DNA of 64,000 nt, taken from contig CM049307.1 of the NCBI GenBank assembly GCA_026874595.1, positions 63,392,370 through 63,456,369 of the forward strand, given 5' to 3'. Shown piece by piece: positions 37,401 through 55,776 of this stretch. The notes beneath the pieces were generated by a model, which had not been told where the DNA came from, searched no databases, and saw only the letters and a list, made by a program, of their open reading frames with translations. Numbering within the stretch: the stretch's first letter is position 1; each line of letters starts with the position of its first letter. A program made the translations under genes and the position numbers. Source of the stretch: Sipunculus nudus (lineage: Eukaryota > Annelida > Sipuncula > Golfingiida > Sipunculidae).

Positions 37401-40400
37401 ACTTAGAATGCTTATCAAAAACATGTTTAAGTGGAACAACAAGCAAGTACAAAAGAAAATGGTAGTTAAGGTGCAGGGAAATACACACTTTCAGAACATA
37501 AGATAAAGATGTTTGAGTGAAATCTCATATTTTGTATCAATTGTACTCCAAACTCAAATTTCTTAATTGCAATAATGGGTAAAATAAAAAATGGGAGAAG
37601 AATATAGGTACACCAGTAGTCTTGCATACGAGATATTTTAAATACTAAGCTATATAAGAGCTAGTGCTTTAGTCAAACAAATTTCTGGAAAATTCACTGA
37701 AGCAAACTTAAGATATATCAAATAGTCTAAATGATTTTCAACCCAAAATATAACAATTCAAGGTAAAGGTCACTCAAAAAATATCATGGCCCCAGACTAA
37801 ATCAGCTTCATCCTCTGGCCCATTTCTTCATACTGGTCAAATGTGAAAAAGTTATCTTGCTTCCAAGAATTGTCTGCTGAATCCAAAGTATCTCTGCCTC
37901 CTGGCTAGAAAAGGTGGAATATTGAACTACCGGTACAGGACTGTCTAATGTGGAGTTAACTATTATAGTATAATGCCTAGCAGCTCCATTTTTTGGTTAA
38001 CTTTACTTTCACTTTCTGATATGAACATTTTTCTATTTTTCCATAATTTGAAATATGAAATTTCTATCACTCCTTGATCAGCAAAGCGGAAAATACCACT
38101 ACTCTGATAACTGATGCCACATTAAATGCAAGCAGCAATATCTCAGTGTTAACAAGTTCACAATTAATTAGCCAATTGCCAGGCATGAATTAATCACAGC
38201 TCTTGACACAAGGTGATCAATCACTTAATATTTCAATTGAAGAACAAGTGATTGATAAATTAATTAACAAGCCTACCCTAAAACACAAGCTAGTGACCCT
38301 AGGGTAATGCTACTCAGTTGCAACATTAATACCATTTTTTATTAAAAATATATATATAACAATAATGTGTTACAATGAAAGAGAGAGCACCGATTTTTTT
38401 TATAAAAAAATAAAATTCTACAAATCATAAATCTTAAAATATAATCTGAATTTACAAATTTTTACTCCAGTGCAATTGGTATAAATTTTGATGCACTGAA
38501 TATTACCTGTTAAACAAGCATAATTATACAGCTGAAAATAATCTACAGTTGACAATGAACTTTTAAATTCAAACAAGCCATAAAATATCATTCATCCTCT
38601 AGCAAACATGAAACGTTCTTAAACCATTCTGGTCCTCATATCAAACGAAGGCAAGGTAAGAAAACGGGCCAAAGGGGGTCCAAATGTCAAGTACATAGAC
38701 TCTACAGCATACTAATCTGGTACAATAATGCTGCTCAGTTGTTCAGTGATGACTTTTTAATCATGGCACTCCACTCCCGGCGATGACGAATTGCACATGG
38801 AAAGCTCATAATAACAGACCATCTTCTGACTGTAAAAGATTTATCCATTGTCTGCCTGATGGTTTGAACCTTTGGACTGTGGCGTTAGCGTACTGCTTTA
38901 ATATATAAGAAATCAAGTGCACTATTATGCCCATCCAGACTGCAGTATTGATCTAGGATTCATAAGATATTCTGTATGGTGTGTACTAGCTGTTCCCCTT
39001 CTAAAATAAATACTCTAGAAAAGCCATGTGTCGGTTTAGGGAATGACACATAAAACCAGCTTAGTTTCTTGATATTTTTCACATTTATGGCAAAATTTTA
39101 GGAAATCTCCTTCCTCTGAACAAATTAATCTACATGATGAAATATTACTTTTACATGAGGACCTAGGTCTGAATGAGCCAAGATAACTGATCATAAAAAT
39201 TGATATTCTGTTATCTTGAACCAATTTTTTAATATTTTACTCTTTCTGAAAACAAGTGACCAATGTAGCATGATGCTAACACTATTGAATATAGAGCTTG
39301 CAAGATTTTCTGATTTTCTATTAATTAAGAAATTATCAATAATAATCAACTGCACCTGGACAAATTAACAAATGTGAAAATTTCTGCTGAAGCCATACCT
39401 TAATTCATGGCACCAGTGCAAATGAACTTAATTGAGAAATGAACATGCAAAACTAGTAACATTTAATTAGCTTCATAATCTCTAAACTTTTTAAATTTTG
39501 CTATGTAAAACTTATAATATAAAGAACAATGTCTTTTTCTCAATCATGTCAAAGTCTACACTGAAAACATTTTCTCGAGTGAATGCCCAAACATCATTCT
39601 AAAAGAAGTTGATAAACTGATAAAAAAGAAATGCGAGCCAGAAAATGCTGCACATGTCCAGATACATGCAGGCATACATTATAGTCTGCTTTGTACTGTA
39701 GGCCCAGAAATCCTTACTTATTGTTTGCATTACAAAATGCTACTGAAATCTGTCATAAAAATGTGGTGAACTATGCAGATACATCCCAAACAAACCATAC
39801 TGCATCTCTGACAATAAATAAAAACACTTATACTAGTTATAGGAAATTAATGTTGGGAGTAATAAAAAGGACCATGTGATTCTATTGACGTGAGATGTCA
39901 CAAGTGTTCTCATATTGATGACCCATAAAGATGCTGCTGAACCTGTTACTGCCACGTCCCAAGCCTCACAACAAACAAGATCCCAGAGAAGAGACAAACA
40001 TCACCACAAGCTGAGCCGATGGCTTTAACTGATGCCACACCAATGTGATATGAATATTGATTGGCTGGAAGTGTTAAGGAAAATGGCTTGTTATAAATCA
40101 TTGGATGGCATGGTATAATATTCACCAGTGGTTGGTAGACAGCCCCACTGCCATGACTGTCATACATCTTAACTCAAGACATTCATAACCTGCAAGAAAA
40201 AAATAATCCCCGCCTTGTGTCTCTCAAAGACTACAGCAAAGTGTGAACCAAGTGTATCACTGGTTCTCCAGTCAGACATAAATCAGGGGATCATGTTTAT
40301 GTATATGTTTGTGTGTGTGTTGAGGTAACATGCACAAACATTTCTGCATCAATGTAACAAAAATTAAAATCAAAAGATTCCAGAATCCACAACAAAACCC

Positions 40401-43400
40401 ATCACAATGATAAATTATATCACTAAGCCAGAATACTTTTCCTTCTTAGAATTTATTCTTTTATATCCTAGATTCTTTTAATTCTGTTTATCCTAATTGT
40501 CATAAAGAAACAACTTACAGAAGTAGGCCCCAAACAAACAAGTGACCCAGGGGTCATGATGCTCAGCTGACCAGGAAGACATTGACAAAAGTAATTTTAT
40601 CATCTGAATGTCAAATTTGAATGAAATACTTTTTCCAAACTTGACCTTTTGTATAAAATCATCCAATATTCATTGGGGTACTATGGAGCTCTGTAGCATG
40701 AAGGATATGGGTAACAGAGACCTATTTTTAAGGTTTACAAGATGACTTTTCAGGGGTCTCCCAGCATGTCAAAAAATAAAATTCTAGGTCCAGTTATTAT
40801 GATTTGTGCCTTGTTAACAAATCCAAATGTTTATTCTGGGGGGTATTTCAAAGCCGCATAGGATGAAGGATATGGGTAACAGAGATGTAATTTCAGGTGC
40901 ACAAGGAGACTTTTCAGGGGCCTCCCAGCATATCAAGAAAGGAGATTCTAGGTCAAGTCATTATAATTTGTGCTCTGTTAACAGATGACTAAATCTTTAT
41001 TCTGGGGAGTACTTCGGAGCCCCAGAGCATGAAGGATATGGGTAACAGGGACCTTATTTCGGGTTTCCATGTAGACCTTTTATGGGCTTCCCTGGAGGTG
41101 AGGACAGAAGATTCTAGGTCCAGTCATTATGATTTGTGCCCTGTTAATATATGACCAAATCTTTATTCTGGGGGGTACTTCAGAGCCCCATAGCTCACAG
41201 AATATGGGTAACAGGGACCTTATTTCGAGTTTCCATTTAGACCTTTTATGGGCTTCCCTGGAGGTGAGGACAGAAGATTCTAGGTCCAGTCATTATGATA
41301 TGTGCCCTGTTTACAGATGTTCACATTTTTAAAGGTCTCAAAAATAGAGAAAAAAATTCGTAAAAAATCGAAAAATACAGGTGGCGCCACCAGTCTTCAG
41401 GAACTGATGGAACCTCTCATGATCAATATGTATGCCAAAAATCATGACCATCAGTCAAGTAGTTAATGAGATATTGAAGTTTTTGTATGAAATTTTGGAC
41501 ATTTCTGGGGGGTACTTTGGGGCCCCATAGCTCAAAGGATATAGGTCACAGGACCTAATTTCAGGTTTACAAGGAGAATTTCCATAGACCTCCCAGGATT
41601 TCAAGTAAGAAGATTCCCGGTCTAGCGGTTACGATTTGTGCCCTGTTAACAGACAGACGCCTGGATGGCCAGACGGACGACGGACAAAAGGTCATCCCAA
41701 CAGCTCAGATGACTTTCAGTCAGCTGAGCTAAAAATTGAAAAAATACAGGTGGCGCCACCAGAATGCAGAAACTGATGAAACATTTCATGATCAATATCC
41801 ATGGAAAGAATCATGGTGATCAATATAATAACTGTTCAGATACTTGAGCTTTTGTATCAAATTTTCCATTATTCTGGGGGGTACTTCGGAGCCCCATAGC
41901 TCAGAGGTTATGGGTAACAGAGACCTAATTTCAAGTTTTTAAGGAAACTTTTCATGGGCCTCTCAGCATGTCAAGAGAGAAGATTCTAGGTCCAGTTGTT
42001 ACGATTTGTGCCATGTTAACAAAGGACCGCATCTTATGAGGTCTCAAAAATAGAGAAAAAAATTCGTAAAAATAAAAAAAAATACAGGTGGCGCCACCAT
42101 ACTGCAGAAACTGATGACACATTCCATGATCAATATCCATGCAAAGAATCATGGTGATCACTGCAATAGTTGTTTAGATACTTGAGCTTTTGTATCAAAT
42201 TGTCCATTATTCTGAGGGATACTTCAGATGACTTACAGTCAGCTGAGCTAAAAACACTTAATGGTCAATATTCATGCAAAGAATCATGATGATCTCCGTA
42301 TTAGTTGTTCAGATACTTCAGCTTTTGTATCAAATTGTCCATTATTCTGAGGGATACTTCAGAGTCCTATAGCTTGAAGGATATGGGTAACAGAGACCTA
42401 ATTTTAAGTTTCCACAGGCACTCTTCATGGGCCTCCTTGCATGACAAGAATGAAGTTTCTAGGTCCAGTTGTTGCAATTTGTACCCTCTTGATAGATAAC
42501 ATAGGTGGCGCCACCAGTCTGCAGGAACTGATGGAACATCTCATAATCAATATGTATGCCAAAAATCATGACCATCAGTGATGTAGTTATTGAGATATTG
42601 AAGTTTTTGTATGAAATTTTTGACTACTCTGGGGGGGTACTTTGGGGCCCCAGAGCTCGAAGGATATGGGTAACAGAGACCTAATTTCTGGTTTCCATGG
42701 AGACTTTTCATAGGTCTTCTAGTGTGTTGAGAATGAAGATTCTAGGTCCAGTCGTTACTATTTGTGCCATGCTAACAGATGACAGCATCCTTAAAGGTCT
42801 CAAAAATAGAGGAAAAAATCGTAAATCGAATGATACAGGTGGCGCCACCAGTCTGCAGGAACAGATGACACATCTCATGATCAATAGTTATGCCACAAAT
42901 CATGACCATCATTCAAGTAGTTAATGAGATATTGAAGTTTTTGTATGAAATTTTTTACTTTTCTTGGGGGTACTTTAGGGCTCCATAGCTCGAAGAATAT
43001 GGGTAACAGAGACCTAATTTCTGGTTTCCATGGAGACTTTTCATAGGTCTTCTAGTGTGTCGAGAATGAAGATTCTAGGTCCAGTCGTTATGATTTGTGC
43101 CACGTTAACAGATGTTCCAATTATGCCAAAAATCATGACCATCAGTCAAGTAGTTAATGAGATATTGAAGTTTTTGTATGAAATTTTGGACATTTCTGGG
43201 GGGTACTTTGGGGCCCCATAGCTCGAAGGATATGGGTAACAGAGACCTAATTTCTGGTTTCCAAGGAGATTTTTCATGGACCTCCAAGGATGTCCAGTAA
43301 GAAGATTCCAGTTCTAGCGGTTATGATTTGTGCCTGGTTAAGGGACAGACAGACGGACATACGGACAGACAGACAGATGGACAGACAGACAGACGGACAA

Positions 43401-46400
43401 CGGACAAAGAGTGATCGCTATAGCTCAGATGACTTTCAGTCAGCTGAGCTAAAAAACCTGTAAATTACCTGAAAATGGCATATAGGATTTAGAGAATCAA
43501 ATTAAAACAAGGCCTACAGGCCTAATGCGAACCTGTGCATATGGATATACACCAGGTATAGAACGCTTCAATGCTGAACCACTACTTTTCATATATATGA
43601 ACATTGCAAGTACTTAACACTTTGAACAAGAAACAATACACAAACATCACTGCTGCAATACTGGCATGGGTGCACACAACGAAAAAATTATTGTAGGTGG
43701 CACCACCAGTCTTGTATATGACAAAGCTATTTGACATGCATAAATATGCCCAATTTCAGGCTGATATATCAAATTCCTCCGTAGAATTAAGCAGGCACAT
43801 ACACTTTGCAAAAGACTTAAAGTCATTGTAGAAGGCGACCCTTGTCTTGTGAACGAGAAAGCCACTAAAGACACATAGACAGGTCGGAATATCAGGCCAA
43901 TACATCAAACTTACCTTAAGTCTGATGCACGGGGCAAACCAGGCTTAGGTGAGAAAGGCTGTTGCCCCAAGTGTACTGTGACAAATTACTGGCTCAGGCT
44001 ACTGTACTGAGTGAACTCTTGACTTGCACCTGGCTAGACTGAGTGAACTTTTGACCTGTACCTGGCTGCACTGAGTGAACTCTTGACCTGTTGCATAATC
44101 TGACACAGTTGGCAGTCTGCCAAAGCTATAAATAAATCCAGGCTGACCTTTTGCCTACTGCCAAATCTGAAATAGTAGGCACACAATTGCATAAGCTCAC
44201 AGATTGGCTCCATATGCAGCCCTGAGTGGCATGACACCCATGAGGTGATCACATGATCCTAAGGTGATCACATGCTACCCATTATATGATCACATGCTGC
44301 CCATGAGGTGATCACATGCCTTGTGCTTGGCTGCACTGATTAAACTCTTGACCTATATTTGGCTGCACTGAATGAACTCTTGATCTGTTGCCAAATCTGA
44401 AACAATTGGCAGTTTCTCAACCTATTCAAGAAACATACACAATCTTGGCCTGTTATGTAACTCTGCTAATATTTAATCAACACAAACCATTTGAACAAAC
44501 TTTAGAGGGATCGCCTCTGGGATCATTTCTGTTAAATATTGAACAATTTTGCTGGACCGTTTACAAGAAGAAGACTTTTAAAGTTTTTTCAGCTTTTTCC
44601 CTGTAATATCTAAGTAAATGCAGATAGCAAAAATAAGCTGAATCCATCAACATTTGATATGTGACAGATAATTGCATAAATTTTGGGGAAAGTAGCTCCT
44701 GCTATTCCTGAGAAATTATGAGTTGAGTACAGATGATATGTAATATCGTAAATCTACATATTTAAAAGCTTTTAAAAAACATTCTTGTCAATATTTTCCA
44801 TAGATAACCCGAAATCTAAATGTCTAGAGGCATGATGTAATGGATGCTGATAAACTGGTGCTAGGCTAGATGTATCTGCTTCACACAGCTAATATATATG
44901 GTAAATTGACTCTATTCAATCTTTATAATTCAGCCAAAATTCATTCTTTGGAACCATAAAAGACAATTATGATAAGAATTATTCAGGGAATTGTTCTTGC
45001 AAAATATTAAACAAACTTGCCTCAGAATCATCAGTCGAAAAACATTTTGTAGGTTTATAACTAATATGGGAAAATAACAGCAAAATGGCAAAGTTCAGCT
45101 TCCCATAACTCAGCCAAAAATCATTGGACCAAAACCATTTGAACAAAATTGAATCATCAACATCTAAGGATACTTAATGTGTGAGATTTAAGAATTTGGC
45201 CAAGTGGTTTTTGAGAAGAAGATTTTTGTAGCCACATAGCTAACATGGGCTGTTATGGCATATGACTAAATTCAGCTTCCCATAACTCAGCCAAAAGTCA
45301 CTGAACTGAGTCCATTTGAACAAACTTGAATTATCAACATGTATGGATAATTAATGTGTGAGATTTAAGAATTTGGCCCTGTGGTTTTTGAGAAGAAGAT
45401 TTTTGTAGCCACTTAGCTAACATGGGCTGTTATGGCATATGACTAAATTCAGCTTCCCATAACTCAGCCAAAAGTCACTGAACTGAGACCATTTGAACAA
45501 ACTTGAATTATCAACATCTAAGGATAATTAATGTGTGAGATTTAAGAATTTGGCCAAGTGGTTTTTGAGAAGAAGATTTTTGTAGCCACATAGCTAACAT
45601 GGGCTGTTATGGCATATGACTAAATTCAGCTTCCCATAACTCAGCCAAAAGTCACTGAACTGAGTCCATTTGAACAAACTTGAATTATCAACATGTATGG
45701 ATAATTAATGTGTGAGATTTAAGAATTTGGCCCTGTGGTTTTTGAGAAGAAGATTTTTGTAGCCACTTAGCTAAAATGGGCTGTTATGGCATATGATTAA
45801 ATTCAGCTTCCCATAACTTAGCCAAATGTCACTGAACTGAGACCATTTGAACAAACTTCAGAAAGCACTACCCTAGGATAATTTCTGTGCGATATTAACC
45901 AATTTTGCCATATTGTTTCAGAGAAGAAGTTATTTGTAGCTGTCAGTATGATACTGGCACTGACGACCCCCCATACAAAAAAGGCTGATGCAGGTGGCGC
46001 CACCAAAACCTCAATTTCAGATATGACTCATGTGACCAACATTGGCATAAAGTTTGGTGATGATAGCTCAAGCCATTTCTGAGATTGTAATTTTAGTATG
46101 CTTTTTTGGACAGATGACTAAGTTCAACTTCCTGTAACTCGGCCAAAAATACCGAACTTAAACCATTCAAACAAACTTGAGAGAGATTGTTCAAGGAATC
46201 ATTTCTGTAAAATATTGGACAATTTGGCTGAACAAATTCGGAGAAGAAGATTTTTAAATTTTTTTTCAACTTTTTCCTTATAAAAACTAAGAAAATGCAG
46301 TTAGCCAAAAAATAAACAAAATCCGATAGTTTTTTAGATGACTAATTTTATGCATAAAATTACGTGATGCTAATTCTTGCCGTTTTCAAGATAGTATGGG

Positions 46401-49400
46401 TTAACGTACAGATGAAGGACAACAGACGACGCCACACCATCGCATAAGCTCACAGGTTGGCTAAAAATTCGGCAATGGCGGCAGCTTTGGCTTTCCACTG
46501 AAAACATAATATCCGCAAAACTCTATTTTGGCAGATACAATGATTGTAGCTGGCACCACAAATCTTATATACAACGAAGAGATACAGTGAAACCCCACAA
46601 TTACGACCACCCTGGGGACTGAGCAAAGTGGTCGTAATTGGGGGGTGGTCGTATTTGTGAAACTCTTACCTTGGTTGCATATATCACGCCGATGTTTAAT
46701 GTGTATCAGTTTGTATATATTGCGTATCTTTAATGTGAATTATCACAAAATATTTTACTAAACGGAGAACCCTTTTTATGAATGTTTTATTTTGTGTAGC
46801 TGAAAAGAAAACAAAATTGTTTTATATATTTATTCATGATAAAAATATATATACATGTACACATATGTGATTAACACATAATTACACTAGAGACAATACG
46901 AAGGTAACCTACTTGAACATATTGAACATACGTGGCTGTCATATATTTAGCCCTCCGCTTGAGTATTATATTGTGTGCACTTGAGTTTTACCGACGCTAA
47001 ACTGCTGAGCCAGTTGGCGCCGACTGCATCCTGGTATTCGGCCTTGATTAACACCACTTTCTCCTTCAAGGAGAGCTCTTTCCGAGGCATGGTCGCACAA
47101 CAGCAAGCAATTTAAACGCAAACTTAACCAGTAGAGAAATAAACTGACAGCGATTTATCTGACATTTATAAGACAGCTTTATAAGACAACGGATTTGCCA
47201 CCATGCAAGCTTTATATTCATACATTTGACTGACTGCTCAATACTCAGTGTAAGGTATGAGCACATTTAGGATTAACAAGGTCATAAATTTGACCAATAA
47301 GGATTGAACATTACGTGATTAGTAAAAATATTAAGCTCTCATCCCCGCATTTTTGATAGCTGTAATACATGTGATTACTGAGGGGCAATTAGCATCGCTA
47401 GCCCAAGACCCCAGGGCAGTTAGCCAGGCAGACCAGCTCATTAAGTAATCAGGCTGATAGTTACCCTCTTTGATCACCAACTTACGCCTCAACGAGTCTC
47501 AGCGCAGACACCGAGTCAGGAAGATATGCGGGACCAGATTTACACTAGGGTTGGGAACCCTTGTTACCCTCTTTGATCTTTCGTCAAGGCGCCTGTGACA
47601 AGGCGCAGCCATTGACTCGTGACAAAAGTTGTTTCATTACTTCTCGGCGGTGGTTGCATTAGCGGGGTCGCATTAGCGCTGGGGCCAGGATATTTGGTCA
47701 TAATTCTGAATTCAGGGGTGGTCGTAATTTTGAGTCATTTTTAAACATTAATAAAATAAACAAAATTCGGGACCAAGTAAAGTGGTCGTAATTGTGGGGT
47801 GGTCGCAATTGTGGGGTGGTCGCAATTGTGGGGTGGTTGCAAGGCGGGGTTCCACAATATAAATATGCCCAATGTCAGACTGATATGTCAAAACCCTCCT
47901 GTGAAATAAGCAGGGACATACACTGTGCAAAAATTATTGTAGGTGGCGCCACCAGTCTTGTACACTATAAAGCTACCCGTTATGTATAAACATGCACAAT
48001 TTTAGGCTGATGTATCAAATTCCTCTGTAGAAATAAGCAGGCATATACACGGCAAAAGTCAATGTAGGTGGCACCACCTGTCTTGTAAATGAAAATATCA
48101 TCAAAGACGCATAGACAGGTCAAAATATCAGTCCAATACATCAAACTTCCCTAGAGTTTGATGCACTGGGCTGACAAGGCTTAGGTGAGTAAGGCAGTTG
48201 CCCCCTGAGTGACCTGTGACAAATTGCTGACCCAAGCTACTGCACTGAGTGAACTTTTGACCTGTACCTGGCTGCACTGAGTGAACTCTTGACCTGTTGC
48301 ATAATCTGACACAGTTGGCAGTCTGCCAAAGCTATAAATAGATTCAGGCTGAACTTTGGTGCCAAATATGATGCAGTGAGCAGTCTGCCAAAGCTATAAA
48401 TAGAATGCAGCTACTGCACTGAGTGAACTCTTGACCTGTACCTGGCTGCACTTCTTCCAATCCTGGTACTGTGCCAAAACTATTTATAGAGCTGAAATCA
48501 TCTTGGCTAATGGCCAACATCAAGGCACTGGCAACCGGCAATGGTAAACCAAGTGCTGCCATCCTTACACAAAGGTGGTCCAAACTTGAAATAACTTTTA
48601 AATTTATTTTCCCAATACAAAATGATTTTCAGCTGACTTTTTATAAAAAAGAAATCAGGTATATGTAAAATTATTACGGATGCATACTGAATGCAAAATT
48701 AAAATACAGATATATCTCATTGATGGCAAATTCTTGAATTAAGTTGAGTAGGGACACCAATAATTTATAATCTACGTTTGGTTGTCTTTATAAAGCCACA
48801 GAGAGCTGAATAACCATGATTGTAACATTGCCTGGTATGATGAATAACTTAAATCATAAATCTAAATATTTAAAAGCTTTTAAAAAAATTTTTCTTGTCA
48901 ATATTAACCAAAGATAACCTGAAATCTAAATGTCTAGTGGCATGATGTAATTGATGCAGATAAACTGGCGCCGGGCTAGATGTAACAGCATAACACAGCT
49001 AACATATGGTAAAATGACTCAATTCAATTTCCATGATTCAGCCAAAAATCATTCATGTGGAACCATTAATGACAATTATTATAAGAATTATTGTAGGGAT
49101 TATTCTTGTAAAATATTTAACAAACTGGCTTCATTGGCATCAGTCTAAAAACGTTTTGCAGGTTTATAACTCATTTAGGAAGATGCAGCAAACTGGCTAA
49201 GTTCAGCTTCCCGTAACTTAGCCAAAAAGCACTGAACCAAAACCATTTGAAAAAACTTGAATTATCAACATCTGAAAACAATTAATGTGTGAAATTTAAG
49301 AATTTGGCCCTGTGGTTTTTGAGAAGAAGATGCAGCCACTGAGCTAAAATGGGCTATTATGGCATATGACTAAATCCAGCTTCCCATAACTTAGCCAAAA

Positions 49401-52400
49401 GTCACTGAAAAGAGACCATTTGAACAAACTTCAGAAAGCACTACCCTAGGATCATTTCTGTGCTATAATAAACATTTTGGCCACATGATTTCAGAGAAGG
49501 AGTTTTTTGTAGCCCTCAGTGTGATTCAGGCACTGATGACCTCATACAAAAAAGGCAGATGCAGGTGACGCCACCAATACCTCAATTTCAGATATGACCT
49601 ATGTGACCAATATTAGCATAAAATTTGGTGATGATAGCTCCAGCCGTTTCTGAGATTTAAATTTTAATATGCTTTTTTGTACAGTTAACCAAGTTCAACC
49701 TCCTGTAAGTCGGCCAAAAATCTCCAAACTGGAACCATTCGAACAAACTTGAGAAAGATTGTTCCAGGGATCATTTCTGTGAAATATTGAACAATTTGGC
49801 TGAACAGTTTCAGAGAAGAAGATTTTTAAAGCTTTTTTAGCTTTTTCCCTATAAAATCCAAGAAAATGCAGTTACGAAAAAATATACAAAATCTGATATA
49901 GTTTTTTGGATGACTGAATATTTGCAAAAATTTGGTGATGCTAGCTCCTGCCGTTTTTGAGATAGCTATGGTTAACGTACAGATGACGCATGACGTACGC
50001 CGCCGCACCATCGCATAAGCTCACAGGTTCGCTAAAAAAAATACTACATTCTCTCCCATCGATTTCAAAAAGTACTCAAAATCTACAAAAAGCTTTGAAA
50101 ATGGCAAGGGTGTGTGCCGTAACATCCAACCTAATGGCCGGGAGAGGTAATGTAAAGCTCCATGTAAAGTTTTGTTTCTGTCTATCAGTACTTGAGACAA
50201 TTATGCATTTGTTTACTGTGTAACTGTTTATATATATATATGTTATTGGCACTAAGATATAAATTAGTAATCAGTGAAATAGCCATCTAGCAAAGCAGTG
50301 GCCTGAAAGAATTATCTCATGTTGTACATGCTAATAAAATTTTACTAGAACCACTCTTATCAGTTGTGCCTGTATGTGTGAGTACTAACAGCATATTAGA
50401 ACAGTTAGATTAAATTTATAAGAACAGATTAAATATATAAAAACAATTAAATCTACAACTTAAAAGTTTACAATAACTCCTTCATGGGTGAAAATGGCAC
50501 CTAACCAGAAATTCAAAATATAGTTCTAATATTTACAAAGTCCCAAAAATGAAACAGGAAACTGATTTATAATGAGCATTAGTTTTAAGTGGTGTCTCCT
50601 TCAATGTTCCTTTTGTAACTATACAATTCACACCACAATTTAAGAAGTACAACCAAACCAAATTTCAGGACAATCCACGTAATCATTGGATAAAAATGTT
50701 ATCAAGAGTCAAAATTGCCCAACTGTAAGTATTTATGATTACCCCGGTATATCAAAATATTCTGATGAACCTGTGTTTAGCCAATTTTCTTTTTATATGG
50801 TATAGAGTAATAGTAATATCTGAAGATAATTGACAATATGACCAGTATAGGCACAACATAATTAGTTTTGTTAGTCCTAACAGCTGAACTTATTGACAAT
50901 TTTAATAAAATATTCACTTCATGTAATAAAGCCATATGAAGGGCTAAATAATTATACACTATATCAAGAACTGCCCAGTTTAATGATTCCAGTTCCAATT
51001 ATCTGTTTTTGTCCAAGTAAATACAAAGAGATATCTATTTTATCATCCATGCATTTACCCATTTAATAGGTTCATTAACATTCAGTGACATTTCCAATGC
51101 CTGAAACAAGAAAACAGATTGGTTGTTGGCTAAAAGTGAATTACAAATTCAGCCTACATGTATATAATTTCAGTTATCTTTCGGAGCACTTTAACATGCA
51201 ATCTCAAAATGTATATTTTCCAGAGTGATCACACAGCAAAACAGCAAACCAAATCAGCATATAATTTACCCCTGATAAGTGGCTGAATATGAATTTAATA
51301 ACACTCTGTTTATAGACTATTTGGCTTGATATACCTGCCTAAAATATACATGATAAACAGAAACCCTACCTCTAAAAGTGTGCAAATATACGGAGAGGTT
51401 GGGGATTTCCATTAGCAAAGTGGTAGAGCAAACAACTGGCACCTGGAAGGTCAATTTTCATACAGAGTGAAGCAACTTTTCTTTGTATTCATGTACCATG
51501 AACCAGAAAGGCATACCTACATCTAAATGATAAACATGTTGTTTCAATCTTAATTCAAATCTCTGCTGAGATATTTTACAAGGCCTACAGGCCTAATGCG
51601 AACCTGTGCAAAGTTTGGGAGTATGAATGGAGGTTTATTTTAAAAATTTAATATTGATCCTTCTAAGTCCTGCATATCTACCTTAGTCATTATGATTTCA
51701 GCAAAATGGACATTTCGGACCTGAAAGTTTCAGACTAGGACATTTTAAAACTAGAATATGGGCAGTCGAGAAGGGACTATGTGTATCCGCAGAAATCAGA
51801 GTGGGACGGGTGAAGTGAGGCATGGATTAAGTGGCAAGGGGAATAGAGTGAGGTGTGTTGCATATCAGCATGGATGTCTGCAGCGTAAACGTGAATATAG
51901 GTGGCGCCACTTTTCATAAAATCAAGAAAATTGTCCAGTATGTATAAACCTGCAAAATTTCAGGTGGATAAGTCAAACCAGATATGAGCTAGGATGTCTG
52001 CAGAGTAATCGTGAATGTAGGTGGCACCACGTGTCATAAAATCTAGAAAGCTGTCCAGGATGTATAAACCTGCGAAATTTCAGTTGAATAAGTCAAACCA
52101 CTGCTGAGATATGAGTGATATTATCCCAAGGCAAATTAACAGATGGACGTCTGCAAAAATGGTTGCAGGTGGCACCACCATTTTTAGTGCATGTTATTAA
52201 GCTATCAAAGGGCTACATTTGTGCAAAATTTTTAACCTGATCGGTCAAACAGTTCCCGAGATATGCGGGTTTATGTGTGGAAATAGACGCACAAATGGAC
52301 GCTGGGCAGTGAGGAAAGGTCAGAAGTCAACCAAAAATGAGGGCACAGCAGTTCACATATGACCTGATGATAAACCCAATTCGCTTAAAATGCAATCCAA

Positions 52401-55400
52401 GTTTTTTCAAACAGTTGAAAGATATAGTTCCAATAACCTGGGAATTCTGGATGTAAACATTGTGTCTAGACGTCTAGACGCTGTGTCTAGACGTCTAGAC
52501 ACATTGTCTAGACACCCCCCCCCCCAGCCAGGTCAGTTGCCATGGTGATGTCTTGACCCCACCTGTTTGTACTGAGTGACCTCTTGACTTGGCTGCTGAA
52601 AGTCAGCATGTTGTCAAATCTGTTTTCAAATACAGCAAGCTTTTTCAATTGGCTACAATGTTTTTTTTAAAGCTGTATTTACCCAATCTATTCTTATAAA
52701 ACTGGCATAACCCTACCATAGAATAATTCTTGTAAAGTTTAAACCAATCAGCTTAACAGTTTCATCATAAATCAGTGTATAAGCTAGAAAAGTTTAAAAT
52801 TACATTTTCGCTTGTAAAAAACACATCAATGTAGGTGGCACCACCAATACCTCAAAATCAGATATGGCATATGTGACAAACATTGGTATAAAATTTGGTG
52901 ATTATAGCTCCAGCCGTTTCTGAGATTTTAATATTAGTGTGCTTTTTTGGACAGATGACTAAGTTCAACCTCCTGTAACTCGGCCAAAAATCTCCTAACT
53001 GGAACCATTCAAACAAACTTGAGAAAGAATGATTCAGGGATCATTTCTGTGAAATATTGGACAATTTGGCTGGACAGTTTCAAAGAAGAAGATTTTTAAA
53101 GGTTTTTAAGCTTTTTCTCTATAAAATATAAATTAATGCAGATACCCAATAATAAGCTCCAGGGCACCAAGTTTCACATGTGACTAATTTTTTCACATAA
53201 TTTGGAGCTGCTAGCTCCGACAATTTCTGACTTACAGCCATGGACGGCGGAAAGCCAGTCCTGGACGGCGGATGGCTGATGGCAGACGATGGATGGACGA
53301 CGCTGCGCCATAGCATAAGCTCACAGGTTCGCTAAAAATCAAGCAATAAAACCAATGACTGGTACAACATGACAATCATATTTATCTCTGTCATATTTAC
53401 CAAAATGAAAGTCCAACTGAACTCAACAAATAAAACACTCATTTGTATCATCAGTTTCAAACAGCTCATCATCTGCATTCAGGAGAGGTACAATTTATCC
53501 TCCGCTTCACATGATGTGAAAATGATTGACAAATCATGATAAATAAGATAAATGAGTTTAAAGCACTACAACTGTCAGTCTGCCATGAAAGTCAAAATTT
53601 TTTTTATAAATTGCTGCAAAAATTGATCTAAATGACAGCTCAGTGGACAAATCTGCAATCAGTTGATCAATAGCTGGCACTCAGGGGTTAGCCACTGACC
53701 AGACAATCTTAATGATGCACCATAAAAACATATAAGCTACTTAATGATGTGCGGCCAAGATCAATATGAGAGATTATCAGTGCTTCAGTGACTGGATCAA
53801 GGGCTTTGACTTTTTCACGGCCCTTATCCTCATACAATGGTCACCCATAACACCTGCTTAAAGTCAGAGCAGATAAACTGGTGTGAAAAAAGTCCCAGCA
53901 TTATGCCTGAATGAAAGTAACTGCAGTATTTTAATGTAAAAATGTATTTGCGGAATTCATTACCTGAGAAATAAGAGCAACATATTTCCTTGTGAATCCC
54001 CTACTTGTTCAGCAGCAGCCTATCATGTAAATGTCAAAATCAATATGTTATCTGCAGCAATGGGATTTAAGCTATTAACAAAACTCATCAATGGAATAAA
54101 TTGCAGAGACAGGAAGTCAATGACAAATATGAAATAATGCATTACAACCAAAGATACCTACTGAGTAATGAATATTGAAATGTAGCAAGTTATCTGAGTC
54201 ATACTTGAACTATTTACTCAAGATCAATCCATTACAGATTAAGGGTAAAGAAAAATCTTATTTTAATATATTCTTTCTATTGTCACTCTATATTCTAGAA
54301 TTGGATTAGATAGCAGAAAAGACCGATTCCTCCAAAAACTTCTAGCATACACATAATTTGTCAATTTTAAATTGCCATATTATTTGAAAAAAATTGATTT
54401 TTTTTATATTTTAGAATGAAAAGGTTCAAGATTATACCATTAATAAAATTTTCCTTAAGAAGTTATGGTAATGTAAAAAGTGCATAAAAGAATCCTTACT
54501 GTATATGTCCAAGATGGCCACCATGAAACCTGAATACAGGATTCAGTAGGAATTTAAACTGTACAGGTAGGGACAGAGCTTTCCACTCATGATATGTAAC
54601 TTTCACAACAAAAACTGCAGTGCAAATGCCATCCATGCTATTGGAGTAAGGTAGTTATCTTAACATTACACTATTAATGATGAATTACATGGTACTAAAT
54701 TTTTTATAAAAGTGTAAATCCCATCTCCATGCTGACCACCATCATTTCCTGCACCTTGCATGACAAAGTTCTCAATCATATATCTCAGGGATGTGGAATT
54801 CCTATGTCAAACTTGTCCAAATCAGAAATTTATGGACACAGACATGACATTTTCTGCCACTTGCTCATCCTTGGACAAGTAAAAAGTCGCCATAGTTTTT
54901 CCCTGTAGAAGTGACAACAAAATCATGAGCAGGGGAACAGGTCTATGCTGGCTTCAACTTTGGCTATCATCAAGGACATTCACCCCATGTCACCCGCGGT
55001 TTTTATGCCAAATTTAGACCATTTAGTTTGCAGAAGGGGATCACCAGTAATGTTACTTAACCTTAGGAGTGTGACTTAACCTTACCTGATGAATGTCACT
55101 GTACCTGTAGAATGTAACTTTACCTTTGTAATATGTTTCTTTACCTGTGGATAAGCACCTTACCTGGTGAATGTTACTGTACCTTTGGAATGTTACTTTA
55201 CCTGTGCAATGTTACCTTACCTGTAGAATGTAACTTTACCTGTGCAATGTTACTTTATTTGTGGAATGTGACTTTACCTGTCAAATGATAATTTACCTGT
55301 GTAAACCCTGTTCCAGCACCATCCCACACCAGCACAGGTATGCCAAGATTTGAGACCATCCGAATGAGGAGTCGAGATGCTCTAATCTCCTCTTGATCAT

Positions 55401-55776
55401 CTCCTGGTGTCAGGTACAACAAAGTATTAATCCTTCTCTCACTCAAGGCTACACACATCCAGTCAAGTGTTCCAACTGGACTAAACTTTTCAGGTAAGTG
55501 TACTTTAGGAATCTGTGTATCGTATGACTTATATAAAGCTTCATATTCATATGCATATTGGCCGTGTGCATATCTGGCAGCCCCTGAAAATGACCTAATG
55601 ACCGTCCATAGGAAGGGAGGGCAAAAAATCTCCATGGCGATCTTTTGCTTGTCAGTTTCAAAGAAATCTGCATATTGATCAAAATTTGTATTATCATCAC
55701 TCTCAAACTGACACGTGATCATCTGTATCAACAACACTCTGTGAAGCAGGAGCACTGGCAGGAAGCGTGTATCCAT
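3310..55776 (-). CDS. Nmdar2: NMDA-type ionotropic glutamate receptor, GluN2-like subunit (5' eight exons; 3' part outside window)
   Basis: Glutamate-binding subunit of the NMDA receptor, a ligand-gated cation channel of the neuronal plasma membrane that normally assembles with GluN1. Eight exons read through in one frame (480+194+87+114+176+190+115+224 = 1580 nt, 526 codons plus 2 nt) with GT-AG borders and matching phases. The product runs from a candidate signal peptide (residues 1-23) through the bilobed amino-terminal domain (roughly 40-430) to the S1 linker (453-526). Recognisable stretches are RRINTLLYLTPGDD, CKVMLTFLEGYNFRTFVVLT, AVAKNLGLTGKEFVWLV and DITWPGDSPLPPKGRPEK, which follow the order of vertebrate GluN2 and insect Nmdar2 domains. 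The CC.GFC S1 core, membrane segments and S2 are not in the window and should lie to the left. GluN2 is preferred over GluN1 because of the VDP.TGKC segment before S1. The start codon is the least certain part. Confidence 0.88.
3616..3781. mobile_element. MITE of Tigger/pogo type (166 bp)
   Basis: Starts cagtggaacctg and ends in the near-inverse cagatttcactg. It is flanked on both sides by TA, the usual target duplication of Tc1/mariner/pogo elements. No coding sequence. Confidence 0.7.
3784..5397. other. Intron between exons 7 and 8, nothing recognised
   Basis: AT-rich unique sequence. Short open frames on both strands have no recognisable domains or splice-supported continuity. Confidence 0.5.
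5398..5512 (-). CDS. Nmdar2: GluN2-like exon 7
   Basis: The acceptor is tgtttttgttgcag|ATATC and the donor GCACAG|GTGAGA. It encodes residues 414-452 (YLVKSKEKPDPMLVNPRFET, MQIMNVKRGHTWAQ), equivalent to the F.EDG....P.L.II.L...R.W..VG segment at the end of the amino-terminal domain. It leaves in phase 0. Confidence 0.88.
5513..7131. other. Intron between exons 6 and 7
   Basis: AT-rich unique sequence apart from the TA microsatellite near its right end. Confidence 0.5.
6750..6833. repeat. (TA)n microsatellite, about 84 bp
   Basis: An uninterrupted run of TA dinucleotides. Confidence 0.97.
7132..7321 (-). CDS. Nmdar2: GluN2-like exon 6
   Basis: The acceptor is tgtttaacatcag|CGACC and the donor TTTGA|GTAAGTG. 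It encodes residues 351-413 (TYFSHEVPVMENVIKDMVKL, then DAVNMLVLD and KFNCSSNLTYW). The cysteine in FNCSSN corresponds to the conserved Cys of the second lobe, and NCS and NLT are potential N-glycosylation sites. Phases agree with both neighbouring exons. Confidence 0.9.
7322..8432. other. Intron between exons 5 and 6, unique part
   Basis: AT-rich sequence with no recognised gene or repeat ends. Confidence 0.5.
8433..8763 (+). mobile_element. Family A repeat, short copy (A1)
   Basis: The left end ctagaacacaggtagtcgac is followed by tgtatccgccaaaa. The right end is a hairpin at 8731-8760 (gtattcgcaaaac, ttt, gttttggcggatac). The right arm is the reverse complement of the left subterminal motif. 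About 330 bp with a single core; no protein-coding capacity. Interpreted as a non-autonomous Helentron-associated-like element. Confidence 0.75.
9312..10473 (+). mobile_element. Family A element nested in B1 (A2)
   Basis: The left end ctagaatacgggtagccgac is followed by gtgtatccgccaaaa; the right-end hairpin is at 10442-10471. Several cores contain gtaggtggcgccacctgtca, then cataaaatcaagaaagctat and gcaaaattttaggcagat. It interrupts the 5' part of B1, so it is the younger insertion. Confidence 0.8.
13080..13160. repeat. GACA/GACG microsatellite before the B1 3' hairpin
   Basis: A run of gacggacagacagacgga-type tetranucleotides. Similar runs precede the 3' ends of B2 (about 21035-21065), B3 (about 41651-41690 and 43345-43405) and D (about 29350-29390). 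Confidence 0.9.
13174..13205. repeat. 3' terminal hairpin of B1
   Basis: tagctcagc and tgact pair with agtca and gctgagcta around a gaa loop. The stem is 14 bp with one bulged T. Confidence 0.9.
13212..13998. other. Intron, unique, with (TA)n at 13445-13489
   Basis: AT-rich sequence containing an interrupted TA microsatellite of about 45 bp. Nothing else recognised. Confidence 0.6.
13999..14174 (-). CDS. Nmdar2: GluN2-like exon 5
   Basis: The acceptor is tgtgattgtag|GCATGAG and the donor ACAATAG|GTAACC. It encodes HEASQIFAVAKNLGLTGKEF and VWLVTKSVV, among the most recognisable GluN2 amino-terminal motifs (I..VA...GLTG..Y.W.V). A variable acidic stretch (ESYDDDQPV) follows and then SFPVGTIG. 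Residues 292-350. Confidence 0.93.
14175..14631. other. Intron between exons 4 and 5
   Basis: 457 bp of unique AT-rich sequence. No element recognised. Confidence 0.6.
14632..14745 (-). CDS. Nmdar2: GluN2-like exon 4 (114 nt)
   Basis: The acceptor is tttatttggtttcag|ATATG and the donor CTCCAC|GTAAGT. It encodes residues 254-291 (YEILAEVQILSLDSATIHAK, NTETRVILFHAS), matching the lobe-2 strand-helix-strand of GluN2 (LTLD...L..L.....RLLFC). It enters and leaves after two codon bases and, like exon 3, is a multiple of three. Confidence 0.88.
14746..15817. other. Intron between exons 3 and 4, unique part
   Basis: AT-rich. No gene or repeat end recognised. Confidence 0.5.
15818..16600 (+). mobile_element. 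Family A element, 3' truncated (A3)
   Basis: The left end ctagaatacgggtagtcgac is followed by cores with ggtggtgccacc (about 15967) and ggtggcgccacc (about 16367). The copy stops at ctcagag near 16600, where a Tigger-like fragment begins; the 3' hairpin is missing. Confidence 0.7.
16601..17036 (-). mobile_element. Fragment of a Tigger/pogo-type transposon, one end only
   Basis: It ends ggagtttcactg followed by TA, the mirror of the cagtgaaactcc start typical of Tigger-like elements. gagttgtcYgc-type subterminal repeats occur near 16910, 16991 and 17019. The other end is not visible and no transposase motif is recognisable. Confidence 0.5.
17819..20851 (+). mobile_element. Near-complete pogo-superfamily DNA transposon (3033 bp)
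   Basis: Perfect 26-bp terminal inverted repeats lie at 17819-17844 (starts ccgttttcccccatag) and 20826-20851, flanked by TA on both sides. It carries one transposase reading frame broken by a single frameshift. The subterminal motif tagataatccgcaccc is repeated near 17834 and 17850. A tandem duplication of about 96 bp follows the transposase (about 19797-19990). It is visibly less AT-rich in its coding part than the host introns. Confidence 0.95.
18482..19797 (+). pseudogene. pogo-type transposase (HTH + DDE_1), frameshifted
   Basis: Transposase of the surrounding element. The ATG at 18482 begins MPRRSSYTTAFKLQVVQYAE, an N-terminal DNA-binding helix-turn-helix with AARHFGIDESNVRLWKR. A CENP-B-like second helical region (VLEWISECRAPGNAVSTVQV) follows. 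Near 18765-18775 the frame shifts and a few family residues seem to be missing. The second frame continues with DFKASSNWCYRF and SIRRKTHISQKLPADYEEKL into a DDE_1 catalytic domain. Candidate catalytic Asp codons are at 18964 (NADQTP), 19291 (LVLDAF) and 19402 (LQPLDVG). The protein ends in an acidic tail (DEEETEESSDDENDTDD) and a stop at 19797. The catalytic triad is intact, so the damage is limited and probably recent. POGK-like members of the family have the same layout. Confidence 0.92.
21177..21263 (-). CDS. Nmdar2: GluN2-like exon 3 (87 nt)
   Basis: A short exon found by phase: acceptor atatttccag|TTC, donor AAGCAG|GTAATG. It completes the AG| codon left by exon 2 and leaves AG| for exon 4, encoding about 29 residues (SATTLGIRYFDELCG, NRDFLTLPS). 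The sequence is not diagnostic on its own. It is supported by its position between two certain exons, good splice signals and an unbroken frame. Its length is a multiple of three, so it could be skipped without a frameshift. It sits just downstream (in + coordinates) of the 3' end of repeat B2. Confidence 0.75.
21264..23476. other. Intron between exons 2 and 3, unique part
   Basis: No exon or element ends recognised. The 22840-23260 stretch is unique and rich in TAATTA/TTAAT-type motifs. Confidence 0.5.
23477..23759. mobile_element. MITE with aaaggtatggttctc inverted ends
   Basis: The left end aaaaggtatggttctcaggc is mirrored at the right end by cgagaaccatacctttttt. About 280 bp, AT-rich interior, no coding capacity. 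The target duplication is unclear. Confidence 0.65.
24373..24469. mobile_element. Miniature inverted-repeat element (about 97 bp)
   Basis: ttaccactggggctttgccc at the left is mirrored by gggcgaagctctggtaa at the right (imperfect inverted ends of about 22 bp). It could fold into a long hairpin. Confidence 0.55.
24470..26534. other. Intron, nothing recognised
   Basis: AT-rich unique sequence between exons 2 and 3. Confidence 0.5.
26535..26728 (-). CDS. Nmdar2: GluN2-like exon 2
   Basis: The acceptor is ttttttcttcttgcag|ACT and the donor AAAAG|GTTTGT. The exon is 194 nt, entered in phase 0 and left after two codon bases. It encodes residues 161-224 (TSSGGNANVILASP, CKVMLTFLEGYNFRTFVVLT, GREEFISSLADMAENL). 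This matches the GluN2 segment in which lobe 1 crosses into lobe 2 (the QQ..VM..I.EEYDW.. stretch of vertebrate subunits). It is separated from exon 1 by a 28.6-kb intron full of nested repeats. Confidence 0.9.
26729..28489. other. Intron 1, left part, with decayed repeat
   Basis: 27480-27830 has ggtcaaggtcacaggttttc-type sequence resembling family D cores, much diverged. The remainder is unique. Confidence 0.45.
28490..29437 (+). mobile_element. Family D repeat with 3' hairpin
   Basis: Imperfect internal repeats contain gtcatccatcttcaaac and cattaacatcatttgagaat (copies near 28740 and 28890). A ggacggatggatggacggac microsatellite follows, then a perfect hairpin at 29412-29428 (cccgctt, ttc, aagcggg). 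The layout matches the 3' ends of A and B; a matching 5' motif was not found. Confidence 0.6.
29640..30112 (+). mobile_element. Decayed family B cores (B4)
   Basis: Two cores with gtggcactacaagtcttcag and ggtggtgccaccaatac, then cctcataactcagagaat. It ends gtatctcagatgacttacag. Strongly diverged from B1-B3. Confidence 0.6.
30113..32092. other. Intron 1, nothing recognised
   Basis: AT-rich unique sequence without supported features. Confidence 0.5.
32106..32491 (+). mobile_element. 3' fragment of a LINE-type retrotransposon with target-site duplication
   Basis: The 386-bp insertion ends in cctgaataaagttctgttct, a short simple-repeat tail. It is flanked by identical 13-bp copies of tattggtccaaag (32093-32105 and 32492-32504). 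The exact duplication and repeat tail indicate target-primed insertion of a 5'-truncated non-LTR element, or a SINE sharing its tail. No coding sequence remains. Confidence 0.8.
32505..40537. other. Long unique part of intron 1
   Basis: About 8 kb of AT-rich sequence with no supported exons. 37245-37340 resembles a decayed A/D-type core (accaaatttcaggacaattc). Short open frames show no domains. Confidence 0.45.
40538..43451 (+). mobile_element. Family B composite (B3)
   Basis: The left end acaagtgacccaggggtcat carries gctcagctgac. There are three successive 3'-type ends (gtcagctgagctaaaa at about 41732, 42251 and 43451), each closing a block of cores, which suggests nested or tandem insertion of B copies. 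Early cores (40660-41330) are shortened units of about 170 bp; later ones are of the 337-bp type with ggtggcgccacc. A GACA/GACG run precedes the last hairpin. Confidence 0.82.
44236..44320. repeat. 24-bp minisatellite with tgatcacatg, four units
   Basis: tgatcacatg recurs four times at 20-30 bp spacing inside C1. Confidence 0.75.
45101..45985. repeat. 177-bp tandem array, five units
   Basis: The motif tcccataact starts at 45101, 45278, 45455, 45632 and 45809, exactly 177 bp apart. Units alternate between two variants. Confidence 0.95.
46471..46541 (+). mobile_element. Family A 3' end fragment (A6)
   Basis: gaaaacataatatccgcaaa then ctctattttggcagataca matches the hairpin end of A1 and A2. 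Only the tail remains, directly after the end of C1. Confidence 0.65.
46585..47857 (-). mobile_element. Tigger-like deletion derivative nested in C2 (1273 bp)
   Basis: It starts cagtgaaaccccacaattac and ends with its inverse (ggcggggttccac, last two bases mutated), flanked by TA. gtggtcgtaattgtgggg-type subterminal repeats lie at both ends. It retains only an N-terminal transposase fragment. Flanks match an uninterrupted copy of the core in C1 (near 43740). Confidence 0.85.
46947..47090 (-). pseudogene. Truncated Tigger-like transposase, N-terminal HTH only
   Basis: The ATG at 47090 begins MPRKELSLKEKVVLIKAEYQ, as in CENP-B/Tigger proteins. The continuation of the helix-turn-helix (QLAQQFSVGKTQVHTI) is in another frame and runs into a stop, so the open frame ends after 47 codons. 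No catalytic domain is present. Non-functional. Confidence 0.75.
50038..51398. other. Intron 1, mostly unique
   Basis: No supported gene. 50590-50760 resembles a decayed core with accaaatttcaggacaatcc. Confidence 0.45.
51399..51472 (+). repeat. tRNA-like sequence, probably a SINE remnant or tRNA pseudogene
   Basis: ttagcaaagtggtagagcaa closely resembles the tRNA D-arm and A box. It is followed at tRNA distance by ggaaggtcaattttcatac in the B-box position. The acceptor stem and anticodon arm do not pair well, so it is not called as a functional tRNA. Confidence 0.4.
51751..52375 (+). mobile_element. Family A element nested in C3, 3' truncated (A4)
   Basis: The left end ctagaatatgggcagtcgag carries gtgtatccgcagaaatcaga. 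Cores contain ggtggcgccac and ggtggcaccac. The 3' hairpin is absent. Confidence 0.75.
52461..52520. repeat. Palindromic tctagacgtctaga cluster next to a C tract
   Basis: The 16-bp core gtctagacgtctagac occurs twice (about 52464 and 52484), a third half-unit tgtctagaca follows, and then a run of about 11 C. The second copy lies within the perfect 18-bp palindrome tgtctagacgtctagaca. Confidence 0.9.
53339..55049. other. Intron 1, right end, nothing recognised
   Basis: AT-rich unique sequence up to the splice-donor minisatellite. Confidence 0.5.
55050..55297 (-). repeat. 19-bp minisatellite made of splice-donor units
   Basis: On the minus strand the unit reads GTAAAGTAACATTCYACAG. Starts of the + strand ACCT motif are 55084, 55103, 55122, 55143, 55162, 55181, 55200, 55219, 55238, (55257 mutated), 55276 and 55295, an almost perfect 19-bp period, with two more decayed units near 55060 and 55079. 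The last unit, at 55295-55297, is the donor of coding exon 1. Confidence 0.92.
55297..55776 (-). CDS. Nmdar2: GluN2-like exon 1 (first coding exon in window)
   Basis: The ATG at 55776 has a strong context (A at -3, G at +4) and begins MDTRFLPVLLLHRVLLIQMI, a plausible signal peptide ending near MITCQ. An in-frame ATG at 55803 has a weaker context, and a TGA closes the frame just upstream, near 55820. Residues 114 onward (RRINTLLYLTPGDD, then SNLGIPVLVWDGAG) match the first lobe of the amino-terminal domain. The exon ends in phase 0 at TTTACACAG|GTAAAT (last base 55297). That donor is the terminal unit of a 19-bp minisatellite. An overlapping open frame from an acceptor-like site at 55872 could mean that the true exon starts further upstream and that this sequence carries a 1-nt change. 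Confidence 0.8.

Follow-up and report, generated by a model that had tools for sequence, protein, structure and literature searches.

Tandem repeats that carry splice signals have been described at exon/intron boundaries. In amphioxus, minisatellite-like tandem duplications of such boundaries, called 'mirages', occur in Adh3, globin, troponin C and PGBD5, and AG/GT is reported to be kept in many copies (here and below, the slash marks the boundary), the length of the repeats to be unstable and regular splicing to be undisturbed (PMC3087553, PMC3902484). Intron 7 of human F7 begins with several 37-bp repeats in a row, the first of which contains the donor; only the most upstream donor is reported to be used normally, under what is termed 'oriented scanning' (PMC6627357). 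Tandem duplication of AGGT-bearing sequence has furthermore been described as a route of intron gain (PMC4974935).

Here, we describe a 19-bp donor-bearing array in a gene for a GluN2-type NMDA receptor, where it adjoins the end of the first coding exon that we could recognise. The window, that is, the whole stretch of 64,000 nucleotides that was analysed, corresponds to C2:63392370-63456369 of a 1.43-Gb genome. The array is of a known kind, that of the mirages and the F7 repeats; new are the gene, probably the phylum, and signs that further exon ends in the genome share the arrangement. Our literature search, which covered most papers at listing level, returned no report of donor-spanning arrays in a spiralian.

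The amphioxus mirages and the GluN2 array have in common a boundary-spanning unit, many AG/GT copies and a position on the intron side of a splice site, at GluN2 presumably a working donor, and the 10-72 bp units of Adh3 bracket the 19 bp found here. Mirages also differ from our locus: length instability and normal splicing were demonstrated in amphioxus, and the GluN2 array, described here at the level of sequence, repeats the donor side only and occurs in a spiralian-looking rather than a cephalochordate genome. F7 intron 7 is, by analogy, the closest mechanistic parallel. In both cases the first homologous repeat holds the real donor, each further repeat carries a spare donor downstream of it (one GluN2 unit excepted), and use of a spare donor yields no working protein, at GluN2 on the evidence of predicted stops. 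That splicing starts from the first donor is reported for F7 but presumed for GluN2, and the F7 repeats are 37 bp long, highly homologous and variable in number in people, whereas the GluN2 units are 19 bp long with 73% matches. The duplications described for intron gain likewise create splice sites in tandem, but they make new introns, while the GluN2 array lengthens the start of an existing one. At IFI6, a minisatellite of 12-bp in-frame units reportedly offers several used donors at one exon end. The GluN2 array resembles it in presenting several donors at one exon end, but its spare donors meet stops at codon 172 or 174 instead of continuing into readable protein.

Results

Gene, window and genome

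The features of the GluN2 locus and the array loci elsewhere with protein matches are collected in Table 1. 'Exon 1' denotes the first recognised coding exon, and a 5' UTR exon may lie upstream of it. It is single-copy according to a genome search and, taken alone, gave no match in PDB or Pfam. Joined to exon 2, with which it agrees in phase, it matched 72 PDB sequences at E ≤ 1, the top one at 1.8e-4; among the best 60 of these, 59 are named GluN2A or GluN2B and one only 'Glutamate receptor'. The best alignment, to GluN2A, crosses the joint of the two exons, and the Pfam match of the joined exons is to ANF_receptor (E 0.018, below its cut-off). Exons of the ligand-binding and channel domains follow immediately below the window, also on the minus strand, the channel exon having NMDA 2D as its top match (E 6.9e-20). 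The match across the joint and this channel exon uphold the sequence-only reading, which had placed the donor at the end of a GluN2 exon. An open frame at 13940-14275 that weakly resembles the amino-terminal domain probably represents a later GluN2 exon. Also within the GluN2 gene region, a 361-aa open frame at 18712-19794 (+) matches a DDE_1 transposase and a Tc5 DNA-binding domain and is a recent-looking DNA transposon.

Homeodomain exons on contig C12 carry KLTGP and IKELNE(Q) tails (loci L052-L054), which we take to be the signatures of spiralian Lox5 and Lox2/Lox4; a Post2-like exon (L057) is also present. Together, these homeodomain features make the animal probably a spiralian rather than a lancelet. 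Eight further contigs (C60, C61, C62, C66, C72, C74, C75 and C89) hold nine COX1-type frames of 577-578 codons without stops in the standard code. These look bacterial, and genomes of symbionts or contaminants may be present in the assembly; beyond bacterial-type frames, the COX1 search gave one 51-codon fragment and no clear mitochondrion.

Table 1. Features of the GluN2 locus (window coordinates) and protein matches at array loci elsewhere in the genome.
Feature	Position	Strand	Details and basis
First recognised coding exon, GluN2-type NMDA receptor	55297..55776	-	ATG at 55776; 480 nt, 160 codons; phase 0 end CAG/GTAAAT
19-bp donor-bearing tandem array	55077..55301	-	Intron side of exon end; TRF and unit reading
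First two unit boundaries (real donor 55297, spare donor 55278)	55278..55297	-	Sequence reading
In-frame TAA	55255..55257	-	13 codons past exon 1; translation
Degenerate unit without GT	55240..55259	-	CAA/ATAAAG at 55259; sequence reading
Stretch with three CAG/GTAAGG donors (55221, 55164, 55086)	55086..55221	-	U1 duplex -11.5 kcal/mol versus -8.3 kcal/mol for the real donor
Intron 1	26729..55296	-	28,568 nt (28.6 kb); phase 0 at both ends
Exon 2	26535..26728	-	Pyrimidine-rich acceptor TTTTTTCTTCTTGCAG/ACTTCA; donor AAAAG/GTTTGT; phase 0
Open frame with weak amino-terminal-domain match	13940..14275	-	77 aa versus ANF_receptor, E 0.0058, below curated cut-off
L036			SKAP55 PH domain, E 8e-4; protein match
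L040			DNA-PKcs, weak at E 0.61 but 6/6 matches; protein match
L046	C10:37884500-37886600		tRNA methyltransferase, Pfam E 3.5e-5; protein match
L048			ArsA ATPase, E 0.006; protein match

Anatomy of the array

TRF reports a period of 19 at 55082-55300 (11.4 copies, 73% matches) and, for the same array, overlapping rows with periods 38 (55077-55301) and 57 (55082-55298). AG/GT is present at all 11 boundaries that the sequence-only reading had listed (55297, 55278, 55240, 55221, 55202, 55183, 55164, 55145, 55124, 55105 and 55086), so that 11 of the 12 units from 55297 to 55086 retain the splice signal; the loss of GT that had been noted at 55259 is equally borne out. Some details of the earlier description need amending. 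The general unit AG/GTA(A/C)(A/G)G fits as regards AG/GT, but the real donor, GTAAAT, departs from its last G; the 19-bp spacing agrees with the TRF period, apart from one spacing of 21; and the array does not extend to 55050, since the unit at 55067 has no donor and the array proper stops near 55077-55082.

The proposal that the functional donor is itself a member of the array withstood a closer comparison. The unit at 55297 equals the interior consensus at 16 of 19 bases, which together with phase and homology indicates that the units span an exon/intron boundary whose donor is presumably the working one. Outside the donor core (-3 to +6), agreement with the interior consensus is 8/10 positions, a level reached by none of the 108 other AGGTA sites on both strands of the window (maximum 7). 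Going from the donor into the exon, likeness of successive 19-mers to the array unit falls to 9/19, then 2/19 and 5/19, and it fades within the last approximately 9 exon bases. The array gave a single match in a genome search that skips simple repeats, and has one copy in the assembly.

The genome is minisatellite-rich, with 29 TRF rows in the window. One of the other arrays (1338-2804, +), antisense to the GluN2 gene, consists of 27 copies of a 54-bp unit in which an acceptor-like TTTTCAG alternates with a donor-like GGTGAGTA; at 1301-2860 there are 20 exact copies of the former and 23 of the latter, resembling a row of would-be 17-nt mini-exons.

Coding consequence and U1 pairing of the spare donors

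Reading on from exon 1 meets a stop after 13 codons, as had been stated. The further claim that distal donor use would truncate the receptor is borne out by translation: whichever of the ten spare donors is spliced to exon 2, a premature stop results, at codon 174 inside the extension for nine of them and at codon 172 in exon 2 for 55278. In a crude model of U1 pairing (a simple fold with the U1 end), 5/10 spare donors beat the real donor (-8.3 kcal/mol), three of them by more than 3 kcal/mol. These three (55221, 55164 and 55086, each at -11.5 kcal/mol) sit 76, 133 and 211 nt downstream of 55297; 55202 reaches -9.4 and 55105 -9.1 kcal/mol, and the remaining five are equal to or weaker than the real donor. 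Since five spare donors pair better with U1, a rule based on strength only would not choose 55297, and position must matter.

Recurrence in the genome

A search with 3x CAGGTAAGT gave 115 matches, and the 100 listed ones fall in 18 separate arrays; for each, 2 kb on the 5' side was examined for an exon. At ten loci, inspection by eye reveals an acceptor followed by a frame that stays open up to the array's first donor, and the units there include the last exon bases. A mechanical rule, which asks for an acceptor-like site plus an open frame leading to that donor and was drafted after the flanks of these 18 arrays had been read, yet before the control was run, is satisfied by 10/18, eight of them shared with the set by eye; the ten include L034 and L037, which have no other support, and L036, whose frame differs from that of its PH match, while L045 and L048, both exons by eye, were missed.

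Among control arrays found with the reversed pattern, the rule is satisfied by 1/13 (Fisher p = 0.007); of the control loci, L062 gave no assessable flank, its array filling the piece, L063, L064 and L068 have no TRF array and were assessed at a fallback position, and two of these, L063 and L064, seem to belong to a single dispersed repeat. Of positions drawn at random from the window (n = 3,000), 17.4% satisfy the rule (binomial p = 3e-4), as do 4/17 of the window's own donor-like AGGTRAG sites. For a second donor word, AAGGTAAGT, the proportion is 2/6, giving a pooled 12/24 versus 1/13 (p = 0.011).

Protein matches ending near the donor were obtained for four of the 11 putative exon peptides searched (of 18; L034, L037, L038, L042, L043, L050 and L051 were left out), and three of these four loci are among the ten that satisfy the rule. 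The search with L036 also gave CD8 alpha chains in 6/9 rows, which we take as chance. For the exon peptides of L035, L039, L041, L044, L045, L047 and L049, and for those of L113 and L114 from the second word, the protein search gave no match.

Read-through from the exon meets a stop within 16 codons at 9/10 of the loci identified by eye, and array periods are multiples of 3 in 7/18, with no sign of selection for frame. Read-through stops and periods outside multiples of 3 thus make the copies look spliced out. The exception is L046, a methyltransferase exon with a 36-bp donor array open in frame over at least 46 codons, whose spare donors would insert 12-residue repeats rather than a stop. Overall, this genome occasionally appears to have a minisatellite on a splice boundary, the duplication being tolerated when the first donor is used.

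A donor-bearing array is not always a mirage, and we rejected this generalisation: at L030 and L031 the donor words are opposite in strand to the exon. L030 (1480-1900; C1:1.64 Mb) has a UVSSA-like exon flanked on both sides by arrays, and L031 (1380-2300; C1:2.09 Mb) an NCAPH-like exon with an array beside its acceptor. No exon is evident by eye upstream of the array at L032. Very long or compound arrays with many donor words occur at L116 (C15:41.51 Mb), L041 and L047; at L116 the exon rule finds no exon.

Prevalence and the donor-seeding idea

Of 111 Lig_chan and Glu_bd matches, 40 were fetched and 37 were given a donor by rule; donor-bearing arrays were found at 0/37 of these iGluR exon ends (upper 95% bound 7.8%). 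One of them, L100, had been flagged by the rule as an array at a donor and was set aside, being an AT-rich 14-bp repeat of 2.2 copies whose unit has no donor; two further iGluR exon ends have AT-rich repeats within 150 nt.

We also considered whether donors preferentially seed arrays and dropped the idea, as no clear enrichment is left at the array or single-site level. A 7-mer donor pattern gave 2,995 matches versus 430 for its reversed control, but these are overlapping matches, not arrays; there are at least 18 donor-word arrays versus 13 reversed-word arrays, single sites number 15,332 versus 12,946, and AAGGTAAGT gave 18 matches versus 33 in its control.

Discussion

We consider it likely that the array is a near-neutral mirage in which the 5'-most donor does the work, and we infer the following multistep scenario: (i) a tandem duplication copied a unit spanning the exon/intron boundary, comprising approximately the last 6 exon and the first 13 intron bases; (ii) repeated slippage or unequal exchange lengthened the array into the 28.6-kb first intron; (iii) the spliceosome uses 55297, the spare donors normally being silent; (iv) any leak to the spare donors would produce early-stop transcripts that would be degraded. 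With all copies placed downstream of the real donor, the array would leave the protein as it is, provided that splicing starts from the 5'-most donor. Only the upstream donor is reported in use in F7 under normal conditions, and mirages are reported to leave splicing undisturbed in amphioxus (PMC6627357, PMC3087553, PMC3902484); by this analogy, a silent array appears the better default compared with the tuning by copy number that the sequence-only reading had suggested.

Tuning would require the array to act as a regulatory valve, with measurable use of the spare donors followed by early stops and decay setting the level of GluN2, and copy number adjusting it. The invariable stop at codon 172 or 174 and the five spare donors for which the U1 model gives lower energies than for the real donor speak for such a valve. 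The units themselves also speak for it: conservation is higher in the donor core than elsewhere in the unit (0.91 versus 0.77, p = 0.017), and parsimony places 8 changes in its 9 columns versus 25 in the 10 others (p = 0.004). The donor window ranks only second of 19 circular windows for conservation, however, and these tests concern 12 related units of a feature that was picked because of its donors. Higher conservation of the donor core is not predicted by pure neutrality; it is suggestive and keeps a functional reading alive. Against the valve, only the most upstream donor is reported in use in the F7 repeat, and mirages are reported without aberrant mRNA (PMC6627357, PMC3087553, PMC3902484). 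On balance, we regard regulation of this kind as unlikely. A more far-reaching view, that donor-spanning minisatellites recur genome-wide in a spiralian instead of being peculiar to lancelets, that selection keeps the spare donors as U1 landing sites or as a decay leak, and that GluN2 output tracks array length, is speculative and in our judgement unlikely.

The row of donors might alternatively act unspliced, gathering U1 snRNP and thereby aiding recognition of exon 1 or blocking early polyadenylation. Eleven donors within 212 nt, all complementary to U1, with their core retained and placed at the head of a 28.6-kb intron, would suit this function; a donor-bearing array at 0/37 iGluR exon ends argues that such a platform is not needed in general, and we find the proposal quite improbable. 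The array could also be an assembly artefact, as it comes from one assembly, or an intronic minisatellite whose relation to the donor is coincidental. Both are very improbable, given that the units have diverged (73% matches), unlike collapsed or stuttered copies, and that the real donor is itself a unit (16/19). Recursive splicing, in which the AG/GT of each unit serves as acceptor and donor for stepwise removal of the intron, is scarcely credible: CAG/GTAA has the shape of a ratchet point, but the units have no pyrimidine tract (6-8/15 pyrimidines before the AC AG of 8 units versus 12/15 at the exon 2 acceptor), and steps of 19 nt would, to our knowledge, be far below known animal introns.

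Arrays of this kind carry a warning for annotation, as gene finders can put exon ends at the wrong unit. Each such array is also a natural competition test, offering up to a dozen donors of unequal strength behind one exon of an ordinary gene. If 55297 wins over the stronger donors at 55221, 55164 and 55086, position would outweigh U1 strength outside mammals too; if it does not, the length of the array would be an inherited means of adjusting an NMDA receptor subunit. With several exon ends carrying such arrays, this one genome would provide a ready panel for the study of donor competition.
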